From positions 3,868,001-3,932,000 of the forward strand of contig NZ_CAJRAF010000002.1 in the NCBI RefSeq assembly GCF_907164905.1: 64,000 nt of DNA, in the 5' to 3' direction. Both the position numbers and the translations under genes were made by a program. Of this stretch, positions 47,623-62,175 are shown in pieces (position 1 is the stretch's first letter; the number at the start of each line of letters is the position of its first letter). A model generated the notes under the pieces. That model did no database searches. It was not told the DNA's origin and saw only the letters and a program-made list of their open reading frames with translations. Origin of the DNA: Dyadobacter sp. CECT 9275. Its GTDB lineage: Bacteria > Bacteroidota > Bacteroidia > Cytophagales > Spirosomataceae.

Positions 47623-48693
47623 TCAGATTCTTTTCAGCAATTCCTCACCCGCGGCTTCCGTATTCAGGATTTTTTCTGAAGGTGTGGAAGCATCTGCAAT
47701 GTCCCGCGTTCTGAAACCATCTTTAAGCAGTTTGTCCACTGCGGCAATGACGGTATCGGCTTCTTCTTTTAATCCAAAAGATATATCGAGCAGCAGGGCC
47801 ACTGAAAGTACCGATGCAAGCGGATTAGCAACACCCTTTCCGGTAATGTCGTGAGCAGAGCCGTGGATCGGTTCATAAACTCCTGTGCTGTCTCCCACCG
47901 AGGCAGATGCGAGCATACCCATGGATCCTGCTATCTGGCTGGCTTCGTCGGTAAGGATATCTCCAAAAAGGTTAGCAGTTACCACTACATCAAAACGTTT
48001 GGGATCTTTGATCAGCATCATCGCAGCCGAATCAACAAACTGGTGTTCCACTTCGATATCCGGATATTCAGGGGCAATAGCCTGTACCACTTCTCTCCAT
48101 AAACGGCTTGTTTCCAAAACATTGGCTTTGTCTACAGAGCATAATTTTTTACGGCGGGTTCCCGCGGCTTCAAAGGCTTTACGCGCAATGCGTTCCACTT
48201 CGTAGCGGCTGTATTCTGCAATATCGTAGGCGGTATCTCCCTCATTTTTCCGGCCTTTTTCTCCGAAGTAAATATCTCCGGTAAGTTCGCGGAAGAAAAG
48301 GATATCCGAGCCCTTCAGTATCTCAGGCTTGATAGAGGAAGCACCCAGAAGCTCATCAAATAATTTAATAGGTCTTAAGTTGGCATACAGGCCCAGTTCT
48401 TTACGCATTTTCAGCAATCCTTGTTCAGGACGTACCTGTGCGGAAGGGTCATTGTCGTATTTCGGATGACCCACAGCACCAAAAAGGACTGCATCCGATG
48501 CCTTCATTTTTTCCAGCGTTTCCTCAGGAAGGGGATTTCCGGTCGCTTCAATAGCCACGTGCCCTATGAGCGCCTCGTCATAAGTGAATTCGTGTCCGAA
48601 TTTTTCTGCAATTTTTTCCAGGACTTTTTTTCCGACAGCCGTTACTTCCTGTCCGATCCCGTCACCCGGTACTACTAAAATGTGTTTTTTCAT
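47623..48693 (-). CDS. leuB: 3-isopropylmalate dehydrogenase
   Basis: 356 residues starting MKKHILVVPGDGIGQEVTAV. The family blocks are GAVGHPKYD, LRPIKLF, RELTGDIYFG, SVDKANVLETSRLWREVV, VDSAAMMLIKDP, TANLFGDILTDEASQIAGSM and EPIHGSAHDITGKG. The NAD-dependent oxidative decarboxylation gives 2-oxoisocaproate. I use the ATG at 48693; an ATG at 48738 would add 15 residues without family similarity. It follows the citramalate-synthase-like gene by 92 bases and precedes leuA. Confidence 0.95.
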   Translation of the reverse strand: MKKHILVVPGDGIGQEVTAVGKKVLEKIAEKFGHEFTYDEALIGHVAIEATGNPLPEETLEKMKASDAVLFGAVGHPKYDNDPSAQVRPEQGLLKMRKELGLYANLRPIKLFDELLGASSIKPEILKGSDILFFRELTGDIYFGEKGRKNEGDTAYDIAEYSRYEVERIARKAFEAAGTRRKKLCSVDKANVLETSRLWREVVQAIAPEYPDIEVEHQFVDSAAMMLIKDPKRFDVVVTANLFGDILTDEASQIAGSMGMLASASVGDSTGVYEPIHGSAHDITGKGVANPLASVLSVALLLDISFGLKEEADTVIAAVDKLLKDGFRTRDIADASTPSEKILNTEAAGEELLKRI

Positions 48694-48728
48694 TATTGAA
48701 TCTATTAATTTAAAGCGTTCGTTCAGAC

Positions 48729-48774
48729 AGGAATCCAAGCAATCCGGGAGTACTTAACAGATATCCGGATTCCT
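48729..48774. repeat. Alternative inverted repeats between the cimA-like gene and leuB
   Basis: The segment at 48765-48774 (CCGGATTCCT) can pair with AGGAATCC at 48729-48736 (8 bp) or with AATCCGG at 48741-48747 (7 bp). The two pairings share the same arm and so exclude each other. No T-run follows on the minus strand. Confidence 0.35.
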
Positions 48775-48785
48775 ATTTATTCTAT

Positions 48786-50306
48786 TCAACCTATCAAATT
48801 TAACATCTTCTGAGTTGCTTTGATGGCAGACACAGCCTGGTCGGAATCAAGCCCGCGGGTTTTAATTTCCTTGCTGTTGATATTCCAGGTAATAATTGTT
48901 TCGCAAAGCGCATCGGTATTTCCACCCGGCGGAATACGTACGGCGTAATCAGTCAGCATCGGAAGAATAATGCCTTTTTTTACATATATCTTTTTGAGCG
49001 CATTCATGAAGGCGTCGTACTGGCCATCTCCCTGAGCGCTTTCTTCAAAAACCTCTTCCCCAAACCGGATCTGTAAAGTCGCCGACGGTTTCAGGTTTTT
49101 GGAATGCGTCAGTACATAGTTGACCATCTCAACTTTTTCTTCAATGGCGCTGCTATCCAGTACATCAGAAATAATATATGGCAAATCTTCCGGGGTTACC
49201 ATCTCTTTGCGGTCACCGAGCTCAATGATCCGCTGGGTAACTTTCTTCAGATCGGTATCCGAAAGCGTAATGCCCAGATCTTTGAGGTTGTTTTCAATAT
49301 TGGCCTTGCCGGAAGTCTTCCCAAGCGCATACAATCTCTGGCGTCCGAAGCGCTGAGGCATTAACTTGCTGAAATAGAGATTGTTTTTTTTATCTCCATC
49401 GGCATGGATTCCTGCGGTTTGGGTAAAAACACTTTCCCCGGTGATCGGCTTATTGGAGGGGATCCTGATACCCGAGAAGGTTTCAATCAGCTTGCTGATC
49501 GAATACAGGGATTTTTCAACAACGGAAGTTTCAATTTCCGGCATGAAGTCTTTAATCACCGCAATGGTACTGGCAAGCGGGGCGTTCCCGGCTCTCTCTC
49601 CCATACCATTTACGGTAAGGTGCAGGCCATGCGCACCGGCGCGGATGGCCTCCATTACATTAGCAATGCTCAGGTCGTAGTCGTTGTGGGCATGAAACTC
49701 AAAATGCTGCCCGGGATAACGGTCTACGATTAACTTGGTAAAAGTATAAGACTCCGCCGGGGTCAGGATTCCCAGGGTATCCGGCAGGAGGATACGCCTG
49801 ACGGGCAGAGTGGTCAGGAAGTCCAGTGAGGCAAACACATAATCCGGAGAAGAACGCATGCCGTTGCTCCAGTCTTCAAGGTAAACGTTACAGTCAATGT
49901 CATGAGACTGTGCGAGCTCAATTACGTTTTTGATATCGGCAAAATGCTCTTCAGGCGTTTTTTTGAGCTGGTGCGTGAGGTGATTCATAGAACCCTTCGT
50001 GAGCAGGTTCATCACTCTGGCACCAGACTGGAGCATCCAGTTGATAGACTGATCTCCGTCAACAAAGGTGAGTACCTCAATTTTATCCAGAAAACCGTTG
50101 GTCCTGGCCCAGTCGGTTATTTTCTTAACCGCCTGAAACTCACCTTCGGATACCCGTGCGGAGGCAACCTCGATACGGTCGACCTTTACTTCCTGTAACA
50201 GAAGCTGAGCGATTGTTAATTTTTCGGAAGAGGAAAACGACACTCCGCTGGTTTGCTCACCATCGCGCAGTGTCGTGTCCATTATTTCAATATAGCGGCT
50301 GTTCAT
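48786..50306 (-). CDS. Citramalate/2-isopropylmalate synthase-like enzyme with regulatory domain
   Basis: 506 residues. The HMGL-type barrel ([77 protein letters not shown]) is followed by a C-terminal LeuA-dimer type regulatory domain (about 380-500: KPSATLQIRFGEEVFEESAQ, GDGQYDAFMNAL, DYAVRIPPGGNTDALCETII). In Bacteroidota this long paralogue beside leuCD is often considered an (R)-citramalate synthase, making 2-oxobutyrate for isoleucine from pyruvate. It lies between leuD and leuB. A second 2-isopropylmalate synthase remains possible, so I give no symbol. Confidence 0.85.
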   Translation of the reverse strand: MNSRYIEIMDTTLRDGEQTSGVSFSSSEKLTIAQLLLQEVKVDRIEVASARVSEGEFQAVKKITDWARTNGFLDKIEVLTFVDGDQSINWMLQSGARVMNLLTKGSMNHLTHQLKKTPEEHFADIKNVIELAQSHDIDCNVYLEDWSNGMRSSPDYVFASLDFLTTLPVRRILLPDTLGILTPAESYTFTKLIVDRYPGQHFEFHAHNDYDLSIANVMEAIRAGAHGLHLTVNGMGERAGNAPLASTIAVIKDFMPEIETSVVEKSLYSISKLIETFSGIRIPSNKPITGESVFTQTAGIHADGDKKNNLYFSKLMPQRFGRQRLYALGKTSGKANIENNLKDLGITLSDTDLKKVTQRIIELGDRKEMVTPEDLPYIISDVLDSSAIEEKVEMVNYVLTHSKNLKPSATLQIRFGEEVFEESAQGDGQYDAFMNALKKIYVKKGIILPMLTDYAVRIPPGGNTDALCETIITWNINSKEIKTRGLDSDQAVSAIKATQKMLNLIG

Positions 50307-50331
50307 AGATAGGGCAGTCGGCCTTGGCTGT

Positions 50332-50383
50332 GGGCCATCGGCCCGGCAGGAGGCCGGTAACCAAAAGCAGTGGCCAGGCGCCT
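50332..50383. repeat. Cluster of small G/C-rich hairpins between leuD and the cimA-like gene
   Basis: Three self-complementary elements lie in 52 bases: GGGCC-ATC-GGCCC (50332-50344), CCGGC-AGGAG-GCCGG (50343-50357) and the palindrome AGGCGCCT (50376-50383). The composition is very different from the flanking genes. It could be a dispersed intergenic repeat or an RNA-stability element. Confidence 0.4.
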
Positions 50384-50384
50384 G

Positions 50385-50981
50385 TTAGTAAATTCTTTCG
50401 GCTTCGAATTTTTTGATATCCTCCTTCATCGCCTGAAGATAGTCGATATCATCAAAGCCATTTGTAAGGTTATGTTTTTTATAACCGTTGATATCAAACG
50501 ATTCTTTTTCACCTGTTGCAAGAATGGTGATCGTTTGCTCCGGAAGATTAACTTCCAGTTCTGTCTTTGGGTCGGCTTCTATTGCCAGGAAAATCTTATC
50601 CAGGAACTCAGGGCTGACCTGTACGGGCAAGATACCAATGTTGAGGGAGTTACCTTTGAAGATATCCGCAAAAAAGCTGGACACCACACAGCGGAAGCCA
50701 TAGTCGTAAATGGCCCATGCAGCATGCTCACGGCTGGATCCGCTTCCAAAATTATGCCCCCCTACCAGGATTTTTCCTGAATAAATGGGATTGTTAAGGA
50801 CGAAATCTTCTTTGGGCGTATCGTCGCCGTTGTAACGCCAGTCTCTGAAAAGATTGTCCCCGAATCCTTCGCGTTTGGTCGCTTTCAAAAAGCGCGCTGG
50901 GATAATCTGATCTGTATCCACATTCTCAATCGGAAGGGGAACAGCAGTGCTTTTTAATATGGTGAATTTGTCGTAAGCCAT
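50385..50981 (-). CDS. leuD: 3-isopropylmalate dehydratase small subunit
   Basis: 198 residues, the usual length. The swivelling domain is marked by [34 protein letters not shown] and [17 protein letters not shown]. With LeuC it isomerises 2-isopropylmalate to 3-isopropylmalate and can also hydrate citraconate in the citramalate route. It follows leuC by 94 bases. Confidence 0.95.
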
Positions 50982-50988
50982 TTCTAGG

Positions 50989-51020
50989 TAGCTGTCGGCT
51001 TTTAGCTATTAGCTCTTGGC
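50989..51020. repeat. TAGCTNTTNGC-type short repeat between leuC and leuD
   Basis: TAGCTGTCGGCTTTTAGC followed by TATTAGCTCTTGGC is a degenerate tandem repeat of a GC-TTTTAGC unit. Similar AGCT-rich stretches are seen in intergenic regions of other Bacteroidota (general knowledge, not checked). No function is known. Confidence 0.35.
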
Positions 51021-51075
51021 GTAATAGTAATTGCTTTCAGGGTTAATTGTAAAAATAATATTAGAAAAGAGTGCG

Positions 51076-52479
51076 TTACAAAAGATCTCTGGGATCCGTC
51101 ACTACGCCGGTTACCGCAGCCGCAGCCGCCACAAGCGGGCTGGCCAGAAGCGTTCTTGCACCAGGGCCCTGTCTTCCTTCAAAGTTCCGGTTGGAAGTAC
51201 TTACGGCATATTTGCCAGCGGGTATCTTATCATCGTTCATTGCCAGACAAGCTGAACAACCCGGCTGGCGGAGTTCGAAACCGGCTTCTGTCAGGATATC
51301 GAGTATCCCTTCTTCTCTGATCTGCGCTTCAACGATATGTGAGCCAGGAACCACCCATGCTGTAACATTAGGCGCCTTTTTACGGCCTTTGATGATGGAG
51401 GCAAAAGCTCGAAAATCTTCAATGCGGCCATTGGTGCAGCTTCCTATGAAAACGTAGTCGATTTTCTTTCCGAGCATTGATTCATTTTCATGAAAACCCA
51501 TATAGTTCAGCGACTTGTCGTAAGTAGCCTTGCCGCCTTCCACTTCTTCCGCAGTGGGGATGTTCAGAGAAATTCCCTGGCCCATTCCCGGATTGGTACC
51601 GTAAGTGATCATCGGTTCAATATCGGTGGCGTCAAAGGTATATTCTTTGTCAAAAACAGCACCTTCGTCCGTTTTTAAGGTTTTCCAATAAGCCAGAGCC
51701 TTATCCCATTTTTCTCCTTTTGGAGCTTGCTCGCGGCCATAGATGTAATCAAAAGTAGTTTGGTCCGGCGCGATCATTCCACCGCGGGCTCCCATTTCGA
51801 TACTCATGTTACAGACCGTCATACGACCTTCCATGGTCATATTTTCAAAAACATCTCCTGCATATTCTACGAAATAACCCGTAGCACCTGCCGTTGTCAG
51901 TTTTGAAATGATATACAACGTTACGTCTTTTGGTGTAACTGCTTTGCCTAACGTACCATTTACGTTCACACGCATTTTCTTTGGTTTTGGCTGCATGATA
52001 CATTGAGAGGACAAAACCATCTCAACCTCGGAAGTTCCGATACCAAATGCAATAGCACCAAATGCACCATGTGTGGATGTATGCGAGTCACCACAAACGA
52101 TGGTCATACCGGGTAATGTAATTCCGTTTTCGGGACCTACAACGTGCACGATACCGTTCCGGGCATTGCCTAAACCCCAGTGAGAAATGCCATATTTAGC
52201 AGAGTTTTCCTCCAGTGCTTTGAGCTGGTTAGCCGAAAGCGGATCCTGTACCGGAAGATGCTGGTTAATAGTGGGAGTGTTGTGGTCGGCGGTGGCAAAG
52301 GTACGCTCAGGATAGATAACACCTATATTTCTGGTTTCAAGACCAAGAAAGGCAACCGGGCTGGTTACTTCATGTATGAAATGACGGTCGATGAAAAAGA
52401 CATCCGGGCCATCTTCAATTTTGCGTACAACGTGTGCATCCCACACTTTGTCGAACAGGGTACTCGCTTGATTACTCAT
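51076..52479 (-). CDS. leuC: 3-isopropylmalate dehydratase large subunit
   Basis: 467 residues starting [18 protein letters not shown]. Aconitase-family blocks are [35 protein letters not shown] (first iron-sulfur cysteine) and [12 protein letters not shown] (the other two), so the 4Fe-4S cluster ligands are present. The ATG at 52479 fits the family start; an ATG at 52530 would add 17 unrelated residues. It follows the AraC-type gene by about 220 bases and probably starts its own leu transcript. No leader peptide or terminator is seen upstream. Confidence 0.95.
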
Positions 52480-52701
52480 AATTAACAAGATAAATTTTCG
52501 CCATTTTTCATTTCCGGTCATCAGGAACAAGCCCCAAACGCGGTACTACCTCTGAGGCGGGAAATGAGGATACAAATTACCATATAATAAAGGGAAGTTG
52601 TATAACGTAAAACGTTCAAAAAATAGCGATTTTGGTTTTGAGGGTGGGTTTGGGCGGGAATTGGCATTTGCTGGCATTCTTTGTGAAATTTATTGCCGCT
52701 C

Positions 52702-53550
52702 TTATCCCTGCCTTTTCGGTGTTACTCCAAATCTCTCCTTATAACTTTTAATAAAATGTGAAACACTTTCATAACCAATTTCGGTACTGATTTCAGATAC
52801 ATTCCTGGTGCTGTTCCGGAGCAAAAAATCGGCATAATCCAGCCTTTTGTTTTTGAGCCAGTAGGCAGGTGAAGTCTTGAATTCATCCTGGAAATCACGT
52901 TTGAAAACAGATAGGCTCCTGCCCGAAAGCCGGGCCAATTCGTTTAATGTCAATGGTTTAAGATAGTAGCTGTTCATGAGAAAGGGAAGGTCTACCTTTT
53001 CTCCTTTATAAAGGCTGTATAAGATAGCCCTGAGTTGTTTGGATCCGTCCAATTCCAGCAGGTGCAAAAGCAGTTCCTGAAACTTGAGCCTTAAAAAGTG
53101 ATTTTTCAGTTCTGCCCGTGAACGGAAATAGGGAAAAACGGACTGGATGAACTTTTCAAAATTCTCGTCTGATTTTAACAGCAGTATCGGATACTGCGCC
53201 TGGATACCATTTTCTTCGCTGTTGAATAGTTCGGGATGCAGACTTACGAACTCTTTCAGAAGCTTTTCGTCAAAAAAGAAAACCAGGCTTTTATAGGATT
53301 CATTGATTGATTCGGACATTAAATAAAAACCTCGCTGAATGAAGAGAATATCGCCCTTTTCCACATGGACCTCCTGTGTGGGGCTTGTAAATTTTTTCTC
53401 TCCTTCCAGCACTACGATGACGGCGTGTTCTTCAAAAAAAACGTCGTATTTGGAAGGGTATACCTCGTTACGATAAGCAACAAAAGTCATATCCTGAATC
53501 TTGAGAGATTCAAATTCCTGAGAGCTGATATCTGATGGAACGCGTAGCAT
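52702..53550 (-). CDS. AraC-family transcriptional regulator (ExsA-like N-terminus)
   Basis: 282 residues. The N-terminal half is a cupin-like sensing domain (EEHAVIVVLEGEKKFTS, VEKGDILFIQRGFYLM). The C-terminal half has two helix-turn-helix motifs: LTLNELARLSGRSLSVFKRD, then NVSEISTEIGYESVSHFIKS ending RFGVTPKRQG. It starts 5 bases after the ilvA stop and is followed by leuC, so it may be translated from the ilvA message. A role in control of this amino acid cluster is likely from position, but the ligand and targets are not known. Confidence 0.85.
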   Translation of the reverse strand: MLRVPSDISSQEFESLKIQDMTFVAYRNEVYPSKYDVFFEEHAVIVVLEGEKKFTSPTQEVHVEKGDILFIQRGFYLMSESINESYKSLVFFFDEKLLKEFVSLHPELFNSEENGIQAQYPILLLKSDENFEKFIQSVFPYFRSRAELKNHFLRLKFQELLLHLLELDGSKQLRAILYSLYKGEKVDLPFLMNSYYLKPLTLNELARLSGRSLSVFKRDFQDEFKTSPAYWLKNKRLDYADFLLRNSTRNVSEISTEIGYESVSHFIKSYKERFGVTPKRQG

Positions 53551-53555
53551 TACTC

Positions 53556-54803
53556 CTATACTAAAAACTGAAACAGATCGGGCTGATCGTTCAGGTATTC
53601 ATACGTGATCCGGCCTTCATCCATGCGCTGGATGAGGGGTTCGAAATCTTCGCGGTTTTTCAGCTCAATACCTACCAGTGCGGGGCCTTGCTCACGGCTG
53701 GTTTTTTTTACATATTCGAATCTTGCGATATCGTCATTGGGACCCAGTACGTTCAAAAATTCTCTGAAAGCACCAGACCGTTGTGGAAAACGAATGATGA
53801 AGTAGTGTTTCAAGCCTTCATAAAGCAGCGAACGCTCTTTGATTTCTTCGGTGCGGGTGATGTCGTTGTTCCCTCCGCTGATGAGCAGTACCACATTTTT
53901 GCCTTTTATCTCTTCTCTGATCTCGTCCAGTGCTGCAACGGTGAGGGCACCCGCTGGCTCAGCCACGATGGCTTCTTCATTGTAGAGCTGAAGAATGGAT
54001 GAACAAACCTTCCCTTCCGGAATGAGTAAAATTTTGTCCAGACTTTTGCTGCAGATTTCGTAGGTAATATCCCCGGCCCGCCTGACGGCCGCTCCATCCA
54101 CAAATTTGTCGATGTGATCAAGCGTTACTACATGCCCCTGCCGGATGGCCTCATGCATGGTCGGGGAACCCTGAGGCTCAACTCCTATGAGTTTCGTTTT
54201 GGGAGAAAGCTGCTGGAAAACGGTAGATATACCCGAAGCCAACCCGCCGCCGCCAATGGCCATTAACAAATAATCGATCTTGAAATGGGCATCTTTGAAA
54301 ATCTCTAGGCCCACGGTTCCCTGGCCTTCAATAACCTGCAGATCGTCAAACGGGTGAACAAAAATGGCGTTTGTGATATCCCGGTATTGTATTGAGGCGT
54401 GATAGGCATCGTCGTAGGTATCTCCAACCAAGTGAATTTCAATCCATTCTTTACCGAATAAGCGGACCTGTTTAACCTTCTGGGCCGGTGTGGTGGTTGG
54501 CATAAAGATAGCACCTTTCACCTCCATTTTGCGGCAGGCATAGGCAACACCCTGTGCATGATTGCCTGCACTGGCGCAAACCACACCGCCAGCTAGCTCG
54601 GCAGCACTCAGGCTTGCCATTTTATTATAAGCTCCTCTGATTTTGTACGACCGGACGGTTTGCAGATCTTCCCTTTTCAGATAAATATTGGCCTCATACT
54701 GTTCCGACAAATGCAGGTTGTGCATCAGAGGGGTATGGTTAATCACGCCGCGGAGCCTTTCAGCTGCCAGGAATATGTTGTCTAATGAGAGCTGCGAATC
54801 CAA
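53556..54803 (-). CDS. ilvA: Threonine ammonia-lyase (threonine dehydratase)
   Basis: 415 residues. The PLP lysine is in SYKIRGAYN, and the glycine-rich phosphate loop is GGGGLASG. CASAGNHAQGVAYAC and ISGGNNDI are also typical. A single C-terminal ACT-like domain (HYFIIRFPQRSGAFREFL ... GIELKNREDFEPLI) allows allosteric control, as in short-type biosynthetic enzymes. It forms 2-oxobutyrate for isoleucine. It lies behind the ilvC terminator and the nucleotidyltransferase-like pair, so its transcription may not simply follow ilvC. Confidence 0.93.
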   Translation of the reverse strand: MDSQLSLDNIFLAAERLRGVINHTPLMHNLHLSEQYEANIYLKREDLQTVRSYKIRGAYNKMASLSAAELAGGVVCASAGNHAQGVAYACRKMEVKGAIFMPTTTPAQKVKQVRLFGKEWIEIHLVGDTYDDAYHASIQYRDITNAIFVHPFDDLQVIEGQGTVGLEIFKDAHFKIDYLLMAIGGGGLASGISTVFQQLSPKTKLIGVEPQGSPTMHEAIRQGHVVTLDHIDKFVDGAAVRRAGDITYEICSKSLDKILLIPEGKVCSSILQLYNEEAIVAEPAGALTVAALDEIREEIKGKNVVLLISGGNNDITRTEEIKERSLLYEGLKHYFIIRFPQRSGAFREFLNVLGPNDDIARFEYVKKTSREQGPALVGIELKNREDFEPLIQRMDEGRITYEYLNDQPDLFQFLV

Positions 54804-55032: not shown

Positions 55033-55470
55033 TCAGAAGTTTAATTCCAGAAATCCTTTCTTTTTGTTTTTTCTATTACTTGAAAAGAAATGAAGCCAAT
55101 ACAACTGGTCGAACCAGGTAAGCTGATGGCTGGTATGTTCTTCTGGAAACTTTTTTATGTAATACAAATCTACAAATTCCGTCTTGCGTTTTAGCTTAGA
55201 AAGCTGATTCTCTTTTAACCTGAAAATTTCGAAAGGAATAAATGCTACTACGTCAATATCTCTGGGATCAATTTTTTTTGTGGCGAAACTTCCATCTATC
55301 CAAAGAGTAACTGGGCTACCGACGATATCTCTTAATTCGTTTAAGACAGAATAAAAGTGAACCAGCAAAGATTTTCTGTGGTCGTTATTGCAAAAGACCT
55401 CTTCAAATTCACTTAAAGAGATAGGGATAGTGGTGTATGGGAATATATTCCCTTGACTGTCAAATTGCAT
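55033..55470 (-). CDS. Small nucleotidyltransferase-like protein (resembles DUF6932 type)
   Basis: 145 residues from the ATG at 55470. The pattern LWIDGSFATKKIDPRDIDVV is a GS-x9-DxD arrangement as in Pol-beta-type nucleotidyltransferases. The start QFDSQGNIFPYTTIPISLSEF and the end KKGFLEL fit small stand-alone members. The ATG at 55497 is rejected because it lies in the loop of the ilvC terminator hairpin. The gene sits between ilvC and ilvA, unrelated to branched-chain synthesis, and is probably an inserted module with the 68-residue gene after it. The target, if any, is unknown. Confidence 0.6.
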   Translation of the reverse strand: MQFDSQGNIFPYTTIPISLSEFEEVFCNNDHRKSLLVHFYSVLNELRDIVGSPVTLWIDGSFATKKIDPRDIDVVAFIPFEIFRLKENQLSKLKRKTEFVDLYYIKKFPEEHTSHQLTWFDQLYWLHFFSSNRKNKKKGFLELNF

Positions 55471-55474
55471 AGTT

Positions 55475-55508
55475 AAAAAATTACCCCTGGATATCATTCC
55501 AGGGGTAA
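55475..55508 (-). terminator. Intrinsic terminator after ilvC
   Basis: On the minus strand TTACCCCTGG and CCAGGGGTAA form a perfect 10-bp stem (55508-55499 with 55490-55481) with an 8-base loop, followed by six T residues. It lies 33 bases after the ilvC stop and separates ilvDBNC from the downstream genes. Confidence 0.85.
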
Positions 55509-55541: not shown

Positions 55542-56588
55542 TTAATTACGTTCCGGACGTAAGCTACGTACGGTAGCGCCTGCGCGCCACATTTCCGACT
55601 CACGAAGTTCAGCAAGCTCTTCTTCCAGTTTCACACGGTAGTCGGGCTGTGAATTGCGGGTGATGGAAATGGATGCTTGCTCGCCACTTTTTACAGAGTT
55701 GTAAAGTTGTTCGAAAACAGGCTTGGTGGCATCACGGAAAGGTTTCCACCAGTCAAGTGCACCGCGTTGTGCCGTTGTTGAACAGTTGGCATACATCCAG
55801 TCCATTCCGTTTTCGGCAACAAGCGGCATCAATGATTGTGTCAGCTCTTCTACTGTTTCATTGAATGCTTCTGAAGGAGAGTGTCCGTTTGAACGCAGTA
55901 CTTCATACTGAGCAGCGAATATTCCCTGAATAGCACCCATTAAAGTTCCGCGCTCACCGGTAAGGTCAGACGTTACTTCACGGTAGAAATCAGTTTCAAA
56001 CAAATATCCTGATCCAACACCGATACCCATTGCAATACATTTCTCACGTGCTTTTCCGGTTGCATCCTGGAAAACAGCGAAAGAAGAATTTAACCCTTTT
56101 CCTTCAACGAACATACGGCGAAGTGAAGTACCTGATCCTTTAGGAGCTACCAGATATACATCCACATCAGCAGGAGGAACGATTCCGGTCTGATCTTTAT
56201 ATGTTACACCGAAACCATGGGAGAAATACAGGGATTTTCCGGCCGTAAGATTTGCTTTAACCGTAGGCCACAGCTCAATTTGAGCGGCGTCAGAAAGCAG
56301 GTAACAGATGATCGTTCCTTTTGCAAGTGCTTCTTCAATTTCGAAAAGCGTTTCGCCAGGTACCCATCCGTCTGCGATTGCCTTATCCCAGGATTTACCA
56401 CCTTTACGTTGCCCAACAATTACATTAAATCCATTGTCGCGCATATTCAAACTTTGGCCAGGGCCTTGTACGCCGTATCCGATTACAGCAATAGTCTCAG
56501 TAGAAAGTACTTCACGCGCTTTTTCAAGTGGAAACTCTTCACGGGTTACTACTTCTTCTTCGAGCCCGCCGAAATTTAATTTTGCCAT
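55542..56588 (-). CDS. ilvC: Ketol-acid reductoisomerase
   Basis: 348 residues. The Rossmann fingerprint is in IAVIGYGVQGPGQSLNMRDNG. The catalytic domain shows FSHGFGVTY, VAPKGSGTSLRRMF, DLTGERGTLMGAIQGIFAAQ and ETVEELTQSLMPLV, with the metal-binding acidic residues. It converts acetolactate or acetohydroxybutyrate to the dihydroxy acids. It follows ilvN by 60 bases. A strong terminator marks the 3' end of this part of the operon. Confidence 0.96.
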   Translation of the reverse strand: MAKLNFGGLEEEVVTREEFPLEKAREVLSTETIAVIGYGVQGPGQSLNMRDNGFNVIVGQRKGGKSWDKAIADGWVPGETLFEIEEALAKGTIICYLLSDAAQIELWPTVKANLTAGKSLYFSHGFGVTYKDQTGIVPPADVDVYLVAPKGSGTSLRRMFVEGKGLNSSFAVFQDATGKAREKCIAMGIGVGSGYLFETDFYREVTSDLTGERGTLMGAIQGIFAAQYEVLRSNGHSPSEAFNETVEELTQSLMPLVAENGMDWMYANCSTTAQRGALDWWKPFRDATKPVFEQLYNSVKSGEQASISITRNSQPDYRVKLEEELAELRESEMWRAGATVRSLRPERN

Positions 56589-56648: not shown

Positions 56649-57182
56649 TTACTGATAATACTCCCATTCTGCTTCCGGCAGATAATCTACCAGAGTCTGA
56701 GGCGATTTGCTCACCGCAACCCGTCCCGAACGAACAAATTCCAGTATGCCATGTGGCTTGATATAGTCAAAGAATTCAAAGATTTCTTCTTCCGTACCCG
56801 TCTTCTGGATGATCACATAGGTGAGATGCCAGTAAACTACCCAGGCTTTATGTACCTTGTTAATGGTTTCAATGTCAAGCGGTTTCGCACCAATTGGGGT
56901 TGAAATCTTAAACATGGCAATTTCATTGAAAGCAATGTCATCATTCAGATATCCGAATACTGCCAATACTTCTATCACCTTGCGAATCTGGCGCACCAGC
57001 TTTTCAACTGCCTCCCGGGAATCATGACGAATGACGATCGTGAAGCGGGATATACCCTTACGTTCCGTTTCCGAAACCGTCAGACTTTCAATATTGATGC
57101 GCCGGCGGGTCAGGATCGTAGTTATTTTGTTGAGTATCCCAATCGTATTTTCCGTGAAGACACAAATGGTGTATGTGGTCAT
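56649..57182 (-). CDS. ilvN: Acetolactate synthase small (regulatory) subunit
   Basis: 177 residues. An N-terminal ACT domain (TICVFTENTIGILNKITTIL, RRINIESLTVSETERKGISR) binds valine in the family. A C-terminal domain (KPLDIETINKVHKAWVVYW) completes the subunit. It gives feedback control to IlvB. It is 62 bases after ilvB in the same direction. Confidence 0.93.
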   Translation of the reverse strand: MTTYTICVFTENTIGILNKITTILTRRRINIESLTVSETERKGISRFTIVIRHDSREAVEKLVRQIRKVIEVLAVFGYLNDDIAFNEIAMFKISTPIGAKPLDIETINKVHKAWVVYWHLTYVIIQKTGTEEEIFEFFDYIKPHGILEFVRSGRVAVSKSPQTLVDYLPEAEWEYYQ

Positions 57183-57244: not shown

Positions 57245-59005
57245 TTATTCCAGTCTGATATCTGCCACACAAGCGCCTGTTGGCACCATCGGGAATACGT
57301 TTTCTTCTTTTTCAACCAGCACTTCCAGCAGATAAGGTTTGTCAGAAGCGAGCATTTTGTCCAGCGAGTCGTTCAGATTTTCCCGGGCCGCGCAGGTATG
57401 GCCTTGAATGCCGAAACCCTTGGCAATGGTTATAAAATCAGGGTTCTGGAGTTCCACAAACGAATAGCGTTTTTGATGAAACAGCTGTTGCCACTGGCGT
57501 ACCATACCCAGGAAGTTGTTATTGAGGATAATGATTTTAACAGGCAGACCGCTTTGCGCAATGGTACCTAATTCCTGAATCGTCATTTGAAAACAGCCGT
57601 CACCAATAATTGCTACTACTTCCCGGTCAGGCGCGCCAACCTTGGCGCCAAAGGATGCGGGAAGTGCAAACCCCATGGTACCCAGGCCGCCCGAAGTAAT
57701 GAAGGAGTTGGATTTTTTGAACTGATAGTAACGTGCCGTCATCATCTGGTGCTGGCCTACATCTGCTACCACGACCGCTTCTCCCTTTGTTTTATCGGAA
57801 AGCGTGCGGATCACCTCCGCCATTTTTATTTTTTCCGTAGTGGGGGCCAGTTCCGGCTGGGTGATTTTCTGATCTTCTATTTCGTCGTATTTTTTAAATT
57901 CGTTCCTCCATGTTTCATGATTATTTTCATTTACAAGAGGCAACAACATCTCCAGAACCTTTTTTGCATCACCTACTACCGGAGCTTCTGCCTTGACGAT
58001 CTTGTCAATTTCGGCGGGGTCAATCTCAATATGTACTACCTTGGCCTGTTTTGCATATCTGCTCAGGTCGCCGGTTACGCGGTCATCAAACCGCATACCC
58101 ACTGCAATGATCACATCGCATTGGTTCGTCAGTACGTTGGTGCCATAATTGCCGTGCATCCCCAGCCATCCTACGTAATTGGGGTGGTCAACGGATACGG
58201 AAGAAAGGCCCAGCAAGGTAGATGCCGCAGGGATATCCGTTTTTTCAATAAATTTCAATAGCTCCTGCTCGGCACCCGCAATCTGCACGCCGTGCCCAAA
58301 AAACAGAAATGGGCGTTTGGCTTCATTGATCAGCTTGGCCGCTGCCGCAACCTGCTCTTCCTTGGGAGACAGGCGTGGATGGTAGCTGATCAGTTTTTCA
58401 CATTTTTTATACGAAAAGGATTTCGTCATCAATTTTTGCTGCGCATCCTTTGTGATATCGATCAAGACAGGGCCGGGGCGGCCAGACTTCGCGATGTAAA
58501 AGGCTTTGGCAATGATCTCCGGAATCTCGTCCGCATTGGTGATCTGGTAATTCCATTTGGTAATGGGGATAGTAACTCCCATCACATCCGTTTCCTGGAA
58601 GGCATCGGTACCCAGTAAATGAGAGGCTACCTGCCCTATGATACAAACCATCGGTGTTGAGTCAATTATAGCATCCGCGATACCTGTAACAAGGTTGGTA
58701 GCACCGGGGCCGGAAGTAACCAGACAAACACCAACATCCCCTGTTATCCTCGCAAAACCCTCTGCCGCGTGTGCTGCGCCCTGCTCGTGACGGACCAGTA
58801 TATGATTGACTTTGTCTTGATAGTCATATATGGCATCATAAACGGGCATAATTGCTCCTCCCGGATAACCAAAGATCGTTTCCACACCTTCTTCAATCAA
58901 TGACTGGATCACGGCATGTGAGCCATTGATTAATTGAGGTTCCGCTGCAACGGCTGCTTGTTGCTCCAATTCGGCGGTTGCTGTTTGTTTTTCGTTAAAT
59001 TCCAT
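57245..59005 (-). CDS. ilvB: Acetolactate synthase large (catalytic) subunit
   Basis: 586 residues, a thiamine-diphosphate enzyme. EGVETIFGYPGGAIMPVYDA is followed by the catalytic-glutamate region VRHEQGAAHAAEGFARITG. The ThDP motif GDGCFQMTIQELGTI ends with ILNNNFLGMVRQWQ. A central FAD-binding type domain completes it. It makes 2-acetolactate from two pyruvates, or acetohydroxybutyrate with 2-oxobutyrate. It is separated from ilvD by a small gene and a nucleotidyltransferase remnant. Confidence 0.96.
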   Translation of the reverse strand: MEFNEKQTATAELEQQAAVAAEPQLINGSHAVIQSLIEEGVETIFGYPGGAIMPVYDAIYDYQDKVNHILVRHEQGAAHAAEGFARITGDVGVCLVTSGPGATNLVTGIADAIIDSTPMVCIIGQVASHLLGTDAFQETDVMGVTIPITKWNYQITNADEIPEIIAKAFYIAKSGRPGPVLIDITKDAQQKLMTKSFSYKKCEKLISYHPRLSPKEEQVAAAAKLINEAKRPFLFFGHGVQIAGAEQELLKFIEKTDIPAASTLLGLSSVSVDHPNYVGWLGMHGNYGTNVLTNQCDVIIAVGMRFDDRVTGDLSRYAKQAKVVHIEIDPAEIDKIVKAEAPVVGDAKKVLEMLLPLVNENNHETWRNEFKKYDEIEDQKITQPELAPTTEKIKMAEVIRTLSDKTKGEAVVVADVGQHQMMTARYYQFKKSNSFITSGGLGTMGFALPASFGAKVGAPDREVVAIIGDGCFQMTIQELGTIAQSGLPVKIIILNNNFLGMVRQWQQLFHQKRYSFVELQNPDFITIAKGFGIQGHTCAARENLNDSLDKMLASDKPYLLEVLVEKEENVFPMVPTGACVADIRLE

Positions 59006-59022
59006 GACTCTTTTTTTATTTA

Positions 59023-59136
59023 TTAGTCGGATGAATTCTCAAGATTTTCAATATCATTAATATCTCTGGGTCTTCCGGCGGCTTTTTTTGCTGCAATCAG
59101 GTCGTTATAATTTATTAGTCTAATCCCATTAGAACT
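59023..59136 (-). pseudogene. C-terminal remnant of a nucleotidyltransferase gene
   Basis: An open frame on the minus strand ending at TAA 59025-59023 encodes SNGIRLINYNDLIAAKKAA then GRPRDINDIENLENSSD. The pattern I-x-x-DLI-x-x-KKAAGRPRD-x-x-DIE is the usual C-terminal end of small nucleotidyltransferases encoded next to genes like the one at 59129-59341. No start codon or upstream domain is present. The rest of the gene seems to have been deleted, with the junction at the end of the 70-residue gene. Confidence 0.6.
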
Positions 59137-59341
59137 TGTGTTTTCCCATTGAAAAAGCACTTCTATCCATTTTTGGGGGATTGTTTAAATCAAATTGGAA
59201 TGCAACACTATTTAGATAATTAGCCGCTTTCAACCTCTCGTAGGATGATCTAGGCTGATTTTTTGAATAATACTTTTCAGTTTCTTCATGCGTCCCTGCA
59301 TGGAAAGCTGTTCTGTCCAATTTGAATTCCCCTTTCTCCAT
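59129..59341 (-). CDS. Small protein of a nucleotidyltransferase-linked family
   Basis: 70 residues. The pattern LDRTAFHAGTHEETEKYYSK, then YERLKAANYLNSVAFQFD and MDRSAFSMGKHKF contains two copies of a DR[TS]AF motif framing a helix. Proteins with this layout are often encoded directly before a nucleotidyltransferase gene in Bacteroidota (recalled, not searched). Here only that partner's tail remains. It lies 12 bases after the ilvD stop, so it is transcribed with the ilv operon. Function unknown. Confidence 0.6.
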   Translation of the reverse strand: MEKGEFKLDRTAFHAGTHEETEKYYSKNQPRSSYERLKAANYLNSVAFQFDLNNPPKMDRSAFSMGKHKF

Positions 59342-59353
59342 ATTCTTCTTATA

Positions 59354-61039
59354 TTACGGCTCGTCAGTCACACAACCTTCACTGGCTGACTTTACGGTGC
59401 GGATATATCTGCCGAGCATGCCTTTTGTAAAACGCGGTGCTGGTTGTACCCATGCTGCCTTGCGTGCTGCCATTTCTTCGTCGGAGATATGTAAAATGAG
59501 CTGACGGGTATTGGCGTCAATCGTTATTCTGTCCCCATCTTTAACAAGGGCAATGGGCCCGCCGTCGAAAGCTTCTGGGGTGATGTGGCCTACTACAAAG
59601 CCATGCGTTCCGCCAGAGAAACGACCGTCGGTAATCAAAGCGATTTTGTCGCCCAATCCTGCGCCCATGACCGCAGAAGTTGGTTTTAACATTTCTGACA
59701 TACCCGGACCGCCTTTTGGTCCCGAATTACGGATCACAACTACATGGCCGGCTTTAATTTCGCCTTTAGCGAGCATCGTGATAATTTCCGTTTCGTGCTC
59801 ACAGATTTTTGCTTCGCCGTCGAACGTCAGGCCTTCTTTCCCTGTGATTTTGGCAACCGAACCGGTTGGAGCTAAATTCCCATACAATACCTGAATATGC
59901 CCGGATGATTTAATAGGGTTTTCCAGAGGGAAGATAATTTTTTGTGTTTCAAAGTTAAGGTCCGCAGCTTCTGCCAGATCTTCTGCCAGCGTTCTTCCGG
60001 TTACGGTGGGGCAATCTCCGTGGATCAATCCTTTTGAATACAAATATTTCATTACCGCCGGAACGCCACCAATTTCCAGGATGTCTTCCATGAAGTATTT
60101 GCCGCTTGGTTTGAGGTCCGCAATAAAAGGAACTTTGTTAGAAATTTCCTGAATATCATCCAGTGTCAAAGGAACGTTTGCCGAACGGGCTATGGCCAGG
60201 AAGTGTAACGCAGCGTTGGTGGAACCTCCCAAGGCCATCACCAGGGTCAAGGCGTTTTCCAGCGATTTTTTGGTAATAATATCTTTTGGTGTGATGTTCA
60301 GTTCCAGCAATTTTTTCATTGCCGCACCTATCTTTTTACACTCCTCTTGTTTCCCTTCGTGCGTGGCAGGATAGGAACTGCTGAAAGGCAGGCTCAGCCC
60401 CATTGCTTCTATGGATGCAGCCATGGTATTGGCTGTATACATTCCGCCGCAGGCGCCCTGGCCAGGGATGGAGTTCTGAATAACACCCTTATAATCTTCG
60501 TCAGAAATATTATTCGCGAATTTTTTACCCAGTGCTTCAAAAGCGGAAACAATATCCAGCTTTTGTCCCTTATAATGTCCGGAACGGATGGTTCCGCCAT
60601 AAACCATGATAGCCGGACGATCCAGGCGCGCCATGGCCATTACTGCTCCGGGCATATTTTTGTCACAACCCACAACGGCAATCACGCCGTCATACCATTG
60701 CGCCGAAACCACGGTTTCAATCGAATCGGCGATAATATCCCGGCTTGGAAGTGAATAACGCATCCCATCGTTACCGTTGGTCATGCCGTCCGACACGCCT
60801 ATCGTATTGAAAATCAGGCCTACCATGTCATTTGCGGTCACGCCCTGTTTTACATAAACCGATAATCCGTTCAGGTGCATGTTACAGGGGTTTCCCTCGT
60901 ATCCTGTGCTTGCAATCCCGATTTGCGGCTTAGCCATGTCTTCTTCTTTCAGACCGATGCCATACAACATAGCCTGTGCCGCAGGATTGGTAATTTCCTG
61001 GGTAAGGGTTTTGGAAAATTTGTTCAGTTCTGTCGCCAT
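59354..61039 (-). CDS. ilvD: Dihydroxy-acid dehydratase
   Basis: 561 residues. Cysteines expected to bind the Fe-S cluster are in [27 protein letters not shown] and [15 protein letters not shown]. Other family blocks are [45 protein letters not shown] and [16 protein letters not shown]. It forms 2-oxoisovalerate and 2-oxo-3-methylvalerate. It is the first structural gene of the ilv operon, preceded by the leader peptide and attenuator at 61063-61170. Confidence 0.96.
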
Positions 61040-61053
61040 TGGTGAATTATTGT

Positions 61054-61090
61054 AAAATAAAACACCTCACTCAGTGCGGTGAGTGAGGTG
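61054..61090 (-). terminator. ilvD attenuator terminator hairpin
   Basis: On the minus strand CACCTCACTCA and TGAGTGAGGTG (61090-61080 with 61073-61063) form a perfect 11-bp stem with a 6-base loop, followed by TTTTATTTT. It lies 23 bases before the ilvD start codon, so it can only regulate ilvD rather than end an upstream gene. Confidence 0.9.
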
Positions 61091-61133
61091 CAAGTATATT
61101 GACTATATCATCCCACTCACGCTTCACGCGTGA
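61063..61133 (-). promoter_or_regulatory. ilvD attenuator: alternative leader structures
   Basis: On the minus strand there is a 1:2 hairpin TCACGC-GTGAA-GCGTGA (61133-61117), which includes the leader stop codon. Segment 2 (GTGAGTGGG, 61120-61112) can instead pair with segment 3 (CCTCACTCAC read at 61087-61079): 9 pairs, one of them G-T. Segment 3 overlaps the 5' arm of the terminator, so antiterminator and terminator exclude each other. Stalling on the Val/Leu/Ile codons would cover the 5' arm of 1:2 and favour antitermination. Confidence 0.85.
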
Positions 61134-61170
61134 CTACAAGCAGCACAGGAATGACAATTGTCGTTTTCAT
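61117..61170 (-). CDS. Branched-chain-amino-acid-rich leader peptide of the ilvD attenuator
   Basis: ATG at 61170-61168 to TGA at 61119-61117 encodes 17 residues, MKTTIVIPVLLVVTREA. Eight of the residues are Ile, Val or Leu, all between positions 5 and 13. The stop codon is inside the first hairpin. This is the expected design of an Ile/Val/Leu-sensing leader peptide, as in enterobacterial ilv leaders, but the sequence is unrelated. Confidence 0.85.
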   Translation of the reverse strand: MKTTIVIPVLLVVTREA

Positions 61171-61195: not shown

Positions 61196-61209
61196 AGCGA
61201 AATTTCGCT
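61196..61209. promoter_or_regulatory. Palindrome upstream of the ilvD leader, shared with leuA
   Basis: AGCGAAATTTCGCT is a perfect 14-bp palindrome 26 bases upstream of the leader ATG. Thirteen of its bases recur upstream of the leuA leader (core 47535-47546). A TTAGTTTC element follows on the minus strand (61189-61182), a poor but similarly placed -7 candidate. The rest of the 61210-61338 gap is A/T rich and shows nothing else I can name. Confidence 0.6.
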
Positions 61210-61338
61210 AATTATTAATTGATGTTACAAATTAGAAGGGTATCTTTTTATTTTCCAAATATTACAGCAACTATTTGCAAATAATCTTCGATTAATACCA
61301 AATCTTTAGGAATAGAATGAAGGTTAAGGGAAAAGAAT

Positions 61339-61346: not shown

Positions 61347-61368
61347 GAATCGAAAAATGACCATATCT

Positions 61369-62175
61369 ATGCTTACAACAGAGTCCGCATCCAATTATAA
61401 TGATCTTGAGAAAATGAGTGTCGCCGACATTCTGTTTTCTATCAATCAGGAAGATCAGACAGTCCCATTGGCGGTTCGCAAGTCTCTGCCACAGGTTGAG
61501 GCCCTGGTAGAACAAATAGTACCGCGTATGCAGAAAGGCGGTCGGCTCTTTTATATAGGAGCGGGTACCAGCGGCCGCCTCGGCGTTGTGGATGCTTCCG
61601 AATGCCCGCCGACTTTTGGCGTACCGTTTGATCTGGTGGTGGGTATTATAGCGGGAGGTGATACCGCCATTCGCAAGGCTGTTGAAAATGCGGAGGACGA
61701 CTGGAACCAGGCTTGGATCGACTTGATGCCTTTTGAACCCAATGCCAATGATATCCTGGTGGGTATAGCTGCTTCCGGCAGGACGCCCTACGTGATCGGG
61801 GGGCTGAATGAAGCAAAAAAGGCCGGTCTGCTGACTGGCTGTGTGGTTTGCAATGATGGTTCTGCGGTGGCGGCAGCGGCAGAATTTCCCGTCGAAGTGG
61901 TAGTGGGTCCGGAATTCCTGACCGGAAGTACCAGAATGAAATCAGGAACGGCCCAGAAACTGGTGCTCAATATGATCTCAACAGCAGTAATGATCCGGCT
62001 GGGGAAAGTAAAGGGAAACAAGATGGTGGATATGCAAATGACCAATGAAAAACTGGTTGGTCGTGCCATTAGGATGATTATTGAAGAACTGGGAGTTTCT
62101 CCTGACGAAGCAGAGTCACTTCTGGAGGAACATGGCAGTGTCCGCGGAGCGATTGAAGCGATAAAAAAATCATAG
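61369..62175 (+). CDS. murQ: N-acetylmuramic acid 6-phosphate etherase
   Basis: 268 residues from the chosen ATG (MLTTESASNYNDLEKMSV). The SIS fold shows FYIGAGTSGRLGVVDASECP, then IIAGGDTAIRKAVENAEDD, IAASGRTPYVIGGLNEAK, and EFLTGSTRMKSGTAQKLVLN, with the catalytic glutamates of the family. It cleaves the lactyl ether of MurNAc-6-phosphate in cell-wall recycling, giving GlcNAc-6-phosphate. The alternative ATG at 61357 adds four residues. It is divergent from ilvD and convergent with the MDR gene. Confidence 0.94.
   Translation: MLTTESASNYNDLEKMSVADILFSINQEDQTVPLAVRKSLPQVEALVEQIVPRMQKGGRLFYIGAGTSGRLGVVDASECPPTFGVPFDLVVGIIAGGDTAIRKAVENAEDDWNQAWIDLMPFEPNANDILVGIAASGRTPYVIGGLNEAKKAGLLTGCVVCNDGSAVAAAAEFPVEVVVGPEFLTGSTRMKSGTAQKLVLNMISTAVMIRLGKVKGNKMVDMQMTNEKLVGRAIRMIIEELGVSPDEAESLLEEHGSVRGAIEAIKKS

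Follow-up and report, generated by a model that had tools for sequence, protein, structure and literature searches.

A probable ribosome-mediated attenuator in front of ilvD in Dyadobacter, with comparable ilv and trp leaders in Bacteroidota

The leader of ilvD in Dyadobacter sp. CECT 9275 is read, with a probability of about 90%, as a classical ribosome-mediated transcription attenuator that would make expression of the ilv and leu genes depend on how much charged Ile-, Val- and Leu-tRNA is available. The window, i.e. the whole stretch of DNA that was analysed, comprises 64,000 nt (contig NZ_CAJRAF010000002.1, positions 3,868,001 to 3,932,000). All parts of such a device, their conservation, the selection of codons and the mutually exclusive pairings can be read from the DNA itself.

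The attenuator is located on the minus strand between ilvD and the divergent murQ. Coordinates of its parts and of the adjoining genes are listed in Table 1; those of the earlier note were rechecked on the minus strand and are right to the base. The leader frame, MKTTIVIPVLLVVTREA, consists of 17 codons; Ile, Val and Leu account for 8, as the earlier note had counted. The 1:2 structure is composed of an outer helix and an inner hairpin, and its stop codon lies, as had been proposed, in the 3' arm (inner arm 61122-61117). The alternative 2:3 helix of 9 pairs is present as described, one of the pairs being G-U. The terminator has the 11 perfect pairs ascribed to it, a loop at 61079-61074 and, directly downstream, the tail TTTTATTTT. 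Positions 61087-61080 belong to both the 2:3 and the 3:4 helix, and the two pairings are therefore mutually exclusive; the claim that 2:3 uses up the 5' arm of the terminator holds. The intrinsic terminator (11-bp stem and T tail, 61090-61054) sits between the motif-predicted promoter and the first structural gene. Since murQ is divergent, it is unable to serve murQ.

Table 1. Parts of the ilvD leader and neighbouring genes, in window positions.
Feature	Positions	Strand	Remarks
Leader peptide frame MKTTIVIPVLLVVTREA	61117..61170	-	Stop included; ATG at 61170, TGA at 61119-61117
Segment 1, outer arm	61148..61156	-	Partner 61114-61106; absent from the RNAalifold consensus
Segment 1, inner arm	61128..61133	-	Partner 61122-61117, with the stop codon in that 3' arm
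Segment 2	61106..61122	-	Portion 61120-61112 is the antiterminator pairing with segment 3
Segment 3	61079..61090	-	Terminator 5' arm 61090-61080; antiterminator partner 61087-61079
Segment 4, terminator 3' arm	61063..61073	-	Pairs with 61090-61080
T-rich tail TTTTATTTT of the intrinsic terminator	61054..61062	-	Directly after segment 4
-33-like promoter element TTTG	61256..61259	-	Part of TTTGGAAAATA-N13-CTA(A/T/C)TTTG
-7-like promoter element TAATTTG	61228..61234	-	Assigned by motif; one base short of textbook TAnnTTTG
Perfect palindrome AGCGAAATTTCGCT, 14 bp	61196..61209		Between promoter and leader
ilvD, dihydroxy-acid dehydratase	59354..61039	-	First regulated gene (predicted); TIGR00110 above cut-off
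ilvB, acetolactate synthase large subunit	57245..59005	-	TIGR00118 above cut-off
ilvN, acetolactate synthase small subunit	56649..57182	-	TIGR00119 above cut-off
ilvC, ketol-acid reductoisomerase	55542..56588	-	TIGR00465 above cut-off
ilvA, threonine ammonia-lyase	53556..54803	-	TIGR02079 above cut-off
leuC, leuD, leuA, leuB	47623..52530	-	Pfam Aconitase, Aconitase_C, HMGL-like and LeuA_dimer, Iso_dh
murQ, N-acetylmuramic acid 6-phosphate etherase	61357..62175	Divergent from ilvD	Upstream neighbour

The order of genes on the same strand is ilvD, ilvB, ilvN, ilvC, a DUF6932 gene, ilvA, a gene for an AraC-type regulator, leuC, leuD, leuA and leuB. Names of the leu genes were assigned from Pfam families and gene order. 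The genes from ilvD to leuB presumably share one transcript. The cluster makes Ile, Val and Leu, which fits the mixed I/V/L codons of the leader. The gap between ilvD and ilvB (59006-59353, 348 nt) holds small frames; a 70-aa frame at 59341-59129 has no Pfam match and looks similar, by eye, to one that follows ilvD at several Dyadobacter loci. No second attenuator was detected on scanning between ilvD and ilvB. The DUF6932 gene (55033-55497, between ilvC and ilvA) is nucleotidyltransferase-like by eye. The AraC-type regulator (52702-53550, ExsA_N domain, between ilvA and leuC) is a candidate for a second regulator of the cluster.

The 131-nt leader fold has a z of -3.6 and is equalled by 1 of 200 shuffles. 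An automated scan of the window, on both strands, gave 37 terminator-like sites, five of which are preceded by a short I/V/L-rich frame (at least 6 of 10 codons). Among these five candidates the ilvD leader alone reaches 8 of 10 I/V/L codons, and its 2:3 score is the highest (9.0; the next is 6.5).

Upstream DNA of ilvD was taken from all 48 Dyadobacter genomes searched, each of which possesses ilvD. Leader frame and terminator are present in 46 of the 48 (detector threshold at least 3 I/V/L in 10 codons); a terminator without the leader frame was seen in none of the 48. The leader is 15-17 codons long in 41 of the 46. Starts were assigned by the rule ATG first, then highest I/V/L share, which biases the choice slightly; for the analyses of codon position and start context, four starts were assigned manually. 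Read in frame, 66% of codons 2-13 of the 46 leaders specify I, V or L; the two remaining frames give 14% and 7%. The proportion is 85-89% at codons 9-13, where the three residues swap for one another, as a sensor of any of the three amino acids would need. The weakest Dyadobacter leader (L011) has 4 I/V/L codons left. The 46 leaders encode 43 distinct peptides, in which mainly the amino-acid class is kept, at certain positions. This speaks against a small protein acting in trans, a role with a precedent in the trp leader peptide of Sinorhizobium meliloti (passage in PMC7298713); such a role is given almost no credence here.

The genus alignment was made of 52 sequences minus 4 without attenuator and 2 duplicates. 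Pairs of 1:2 and 3:4 are formed in 90.7% of alignment cells versus 26-56% with the partners slid by 1-3 columns. The inner 1:2 hairpin is paired in 97% of cells, the six outer pairs in 84% and the two outermost in 62%. Of the 1:2 structure, RNAalifold keeps only the inner hairpin in its consensus, alongside the terminator; the outer helix is missing. The earlier note had named absence of the frame or the pairings from close relatives as grounds against attenuation; both were found to be conserved. The covariation it had looked to is modest for 1:2 and 3:4: the covariation score and the count of cells altered on both sides lie above every one of 500 shuffles (which ignore relatedness), but doubly changed pairs (6 versus 5.8 in shuffles) and further pair types (21 versus 22.4) are not in excess. 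Two-sided changes occur in 5 of 13 pairs of 1:2 and in 1 of 10 pairs of 3:4. For 2:3 within Dyadobacter no covariation signal was obtained, because both arms are nearly invariant.

Upstream of the leader, TTTGGAAAATA-N13-CTAATTTG recurs with unchanged spacing in all 52 Dyadobacter upstream sequences, with minor variants of the second block (CTTATTTG in one species). The assignment as a promoter is based on the Bacteroidota consensus TAnnTTTG and places the transcription start tentatively near 61222. Counted from this motif-inferred start, the terminated leader would be approximately 165-170 nt long instead of the approximately 110 nt expected in the earlier note.

Allowing up to 2 mismatches, the palindrome precedes ilvD in all 48 Dyadobacter genomes. 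It was found at 29 of 68 non-Dyadobacter ilvD loci versus 0 of 68 shuffled upstream regions, and is present at ilvD loci of Spirosoma, Fibrella, Larkinella and Lacihabitans at which no attenuator was detected. It is probably a protein operator, and its conservation suggests a second, protein-based control. AGCGAAWWTTCGCT has a single exact match genome-wide, the ilvD site; a search by exact matches gave no further member of a regulon. In two Dyadobacter genomes (L112 and L126) leader and terminator are both gone, with promoter and palindrome kept. These two are placed in different attenuator-bearing clades of an IlvD gene tree (support 0.98 and 0.93), in which part of the 48 genomes is represented by 36 Dyadobacter ilvD records, with 3 outgroups added; given their separate placement, these are two independent losses.

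A repressor or activator at the palindrome could be the main control, with the attenuator as a minor or decaying layer. The palindrome is the wider spread of the two elements, occurring throughout Dyadobacter and in the four genera named, and it persists in both Dyadobacter genomes devoid of the attenuator. Frame-specific I/V/L codons and pairings kept in 46 of 48 genomes are, however, not expected of a decaying relic, and control at the palindrome is able to coexist with attenuation. Dominance of the palindrome is regarded as unlikely.

Attenuation, the preferred reading, presumes that the promoter is active, that the leader is translated, that ribosomes stall on it and polymerase reads through, and that the ilv and leu genes further down are co-transcribed. 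RNA polymerase would start near 61222 and a ribosome would begin on the leader frame. With any branched-chain aminoacyl-tRNA scarce, the ribosome would stall at codons 9-13, cover segment 1 and leave segment 2 free, so that 2:3 would form before segment 4 exists; once 2:3 is formed, transcription would read through into ilvD. With all three charged tRNAs plentiful, the ribosome would cover segment 2 from the stop codon and the 3:4 terminator would form.

Stalling was modelled by folding the RNA left free by a ribosome with an assumed 13-nt downstream footprint. The 2:3 helix is predicted in 46 of 46 Dyadobacter leaders if 4-6 codons separate the A site from the stop, in 42 at 7-8 codons, in 34 at 9, in 14 at 3 and in 11 at 2. 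It is predicted in 0 of 46 with the ribosome at the last codon or at the stop. In the window leader 2:3 forms for stalls at codons 9-14, in keeping with the earlier suggestion that the geometry fits stalling at the Val/Leu codons. The complete window leader folds to 1:2 and 3:4. Free of ribosomes and before segment 4 is made, 2:3 folds in 22 of 46 leaders, and also in the window leader folded from its predicted start. Shut-off without translation of the leader is therefore not clearly predicted.

A Shine-Dalgarno-like motif precedes the leader frame in 1 of 46 cases. A is present at -3, -6, -12 and -13 in 13, 18, 13 and 13 of the 46, respectively. Flavobacterium johnsoniae is described, in a passage of PMC6847099, as lacking Shine-Dalgarno sequences and using A at -3, -6, -12 and -13. 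The start context of the leaders is poor by this rule.

Outside Dyadobacter, 30 of 68 ilvD loci were flagged by a detector set at 7 of 10 codons and run without reverse-strand control; with the same detector no attenuator was found at 38 of the 68. The class-wide sample comprised 34 upstream regions of up to 9 kb from 33 genomes, several of them ended by contig ends. It gave 16 sense-strand matches in 15 regions versus 2 on the opposite strand; no attenuator was detected in 19 of the 34 regions. Six other amino-acid sets were used in the same scan: the five without I, L and V gave 0 matches, and K/E/L gave 3. The next frame resembles ilvD or ilvE in 15 of the 16 sense-strand matches; ilvE was confirmed by NCBIfam in 7 of 9 ilvE cases and at two Flavobacterium loci. 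True leaders are considered credible in 13 of the 34 regions.

Pairing was compared in 38 ilv leaders, i.e. the window leader and 37 from outside Dyadobacter. Excluded from the 30 flagged loci were L064 (a near copy of L063) and the doubtful L077, L087, L090, L103 and L109; from the 16 matches, L196 and L198 (probably a membrane mini-protein that has a terminator to itself) and the second match at L187. Where several matches occurred at one locus, the best was chosen with codon score ranked ahead of 2:3 score, with a slight bias to pairing. At L059 the true terminator may lie in front of the hairpin used, which would then be a second one. In 34 of the 38, the 2:3 duplex scores better than 300 shuffles (p<0.05). 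The cognate segment 2 is best against all 37 foreign segments 2 in just 7 of 38 leaders; it is matched by at most 5 of the 37 in 29 leaders and by more in 9. Segments 2, 3 and 4 differ across taxa yet stay complementary, as in L111 (segments GAGAATGGT/GCCATTCTC, 3' arm GAGGATGGC) and L063 (segments GTGGAGAAGG/CCTTCTTCAC, 3' arm GTGAATAAGG). Such diverged but complementary segments of distant Bacteroidota lend support to the predicted 2:3 pairing. Antiterminators of 12 bp are present in 2 (L206 and L207) of 5 further ilvD-family loci, all five unmatched in the class-wide search.

In Flavobacterium psychrophilum (L094) the leader MTTNTIIIIISIIIRSFE and a terminator are located before ilvE. Ile codons are the sole branched-chain codons of this leader and of MKTNMNIIIISIIIRSFE, likewise upstream of ilvE in Flavobacterium (L085), which suggests that flavobacteria may sense isoleucine alone.

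A frame of approximately 20 codons with WWW (WW in one genome), together with a terminator, precedes trpE in 9 of 9 Dyadobacter genomes, the source genome included. The Trp leader of the source genome, MTYSLNTIWWWRARLSKMDE, and its terminator lie upstream of trpE outside the window (C2, approximately 3593950-3594080; L227). The top of the Dyadobacter trpE terminator, TTCATCT, is complementary to the end of the leader frame, and 2:3 is significant (p<0.05) in 9 of 9. Beyond the genus, a frame with two or three Trp codons and a terminator is present at 17 of 21 trpE loci (20 genomes), versus 2 of the 21 loci with a match in the reverse-strand control. Fifteen of these 17 leaders have WW or WWW, one has WRW and one WCW. 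Of the four loci without such a leader, two offer little upstream sequence. A crude 2:3 test is significant in 7 of the 17. No His leader was found directly before hisG at any of 12 Dyadobacter loci (13 genomes searched); by eye, hisG lies closely behind another gene in most of the 12, so that a leader may be located farther upstream. No Thr/Ile/Met leader was found before thrA at any of 9 Dyadobacter loci.

The strength of a terminator could by itself set expression. The hairpin would then be a constitutive partial terminator, and the short frame would be incidental or would merely protect the RNA; but the frame-specific enrichment in I/V/L, the 2:3 pairing across taxa and the cognate Trp codons at trpE make this very unlikely.

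No Rfam family reaches the gathering score in the window, and lax matches within the leader are to unrelated families, far under the cut-offs. Eighteen of 19 related ilvD loci are free of Rfam matches; the sole match is a minus-strand SAM-II elsewhere. The position of the leader upstream of an amino acid biosynthesis gene would suit a T-box, a riboswitch or another curated RNA element, but in view of these scans such an identity is extremely improbable. A SAM-II riboswitch (RF01726) was recorded at 958-1017 of L105, minus strand, near the ilvD locus of a Bacteroidia metagenome genome. T-boxes, riboswitches and leader families of Rfam 15 matched no leader in any locus scanned, including 10 trpE loci, and Rfam-based annotation would therefore miss such leaders.

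Slightly better than even odds are given to a wider reading, in which attenuation by leader peptides has long served trp and branched-chain operons throughout the class Bacteroidia. It would work with ribosomes that initiate without Shine-Dalgarno pairing and hence need tight ribosome-polymerase coupling by other means; in the family of Dyadobacter it would be a cassette, placed downstream of a more ancient protein-operator control, that can be acquired or lost whole. Attenuation needs a ribosome close enough behind RNA polymerase to choose between two RNA folds. The passages concerned in the literature searched do not settle whether Bacteroidota, whose mRNAs are described as devoid of Shine-Dalgarno sequences (PMC6847099), couple translation to transcription in this way. 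As natural reporters of ribosome-polymerase coupling in Bacteroidota, the leaders at ilv and trp operons make it directly testable there. Codon content hints at the target: mixed I/V/L where ilv and leu genes adjoin (Dyadobacter), nearly pure Ile before ilvE (Flavobacterium) and Trp before trpE.

The ilvGMEDA (ilvL) and ilvBN attenuators of Escherichia coli possess a multivalent leader peptide with branched-chain codons, a 1:2/2:3/3:4 architecture and a cognate operon. The Dyadobacter leader, likened to them by description, agrees in branched-chain leader codons, in architecture and in the cognate operon. It differs in having no curated Rfam match, no Shine-Dalgarno-like motif in 45 of 46 leaders, and a 14-bp palindrome between promoter and leader. 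Like enterobacterial trpL, the trpE leaders found here combine two or three Trp codons with a terminator behind them; they differ from it in the absence of Rfam matches at the 10 trpE loci scanned here. The abstract of a comparative paper by Vitreschak of 2004 reportedly mentions attenuators in Bacteroidetes/Chlorobi.

As stated in a passage of PMC2965389 (2010), no leader peptide system was known to its authors outside Proteobacteria and Actinobacteria, bar the atypical ermC and their own Firmicutes case. The uORF/attenuator of Corynebacterium ilvBNC, as outlined in parts of PMC10272879 and PMC11857589 and likened here by description, shares with the present leader a uORF-controlled ilv operon outside Proteobacteria, in another phylum. 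Short frames in 5' UTRs of Bacteroides thetaiotaomicron are termed 'reminiscent of leader peptides' in a passage of PMC7366714. A Bacteroidota leader of the present type is not named in the relevant passages of PMC4833913, PMC2864571, PMC8305728 and PMC6429828, and no description of these ilv or trp leaders was found in the open-access literature searched. The closest report is of the same phylum: one sentence on Flavobacterium psychrophilum (Guerin et al. 2021, PMC9723704) speaks of 'strong clues' for attenuation by leader peptides ahead of operons for amino acid biosynthesis, in a passage that names no operon, sequence, structure or Cytophagales. The statement of the earlier note that the mechanism is rarely described in Bacteroidota is fair in view of this single sentence. 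The probable attenuator is of a kind already known, in a phylum not wholly new to it, and the ilvD leader belongs to a pattern of ilv and trp leaders across the class.
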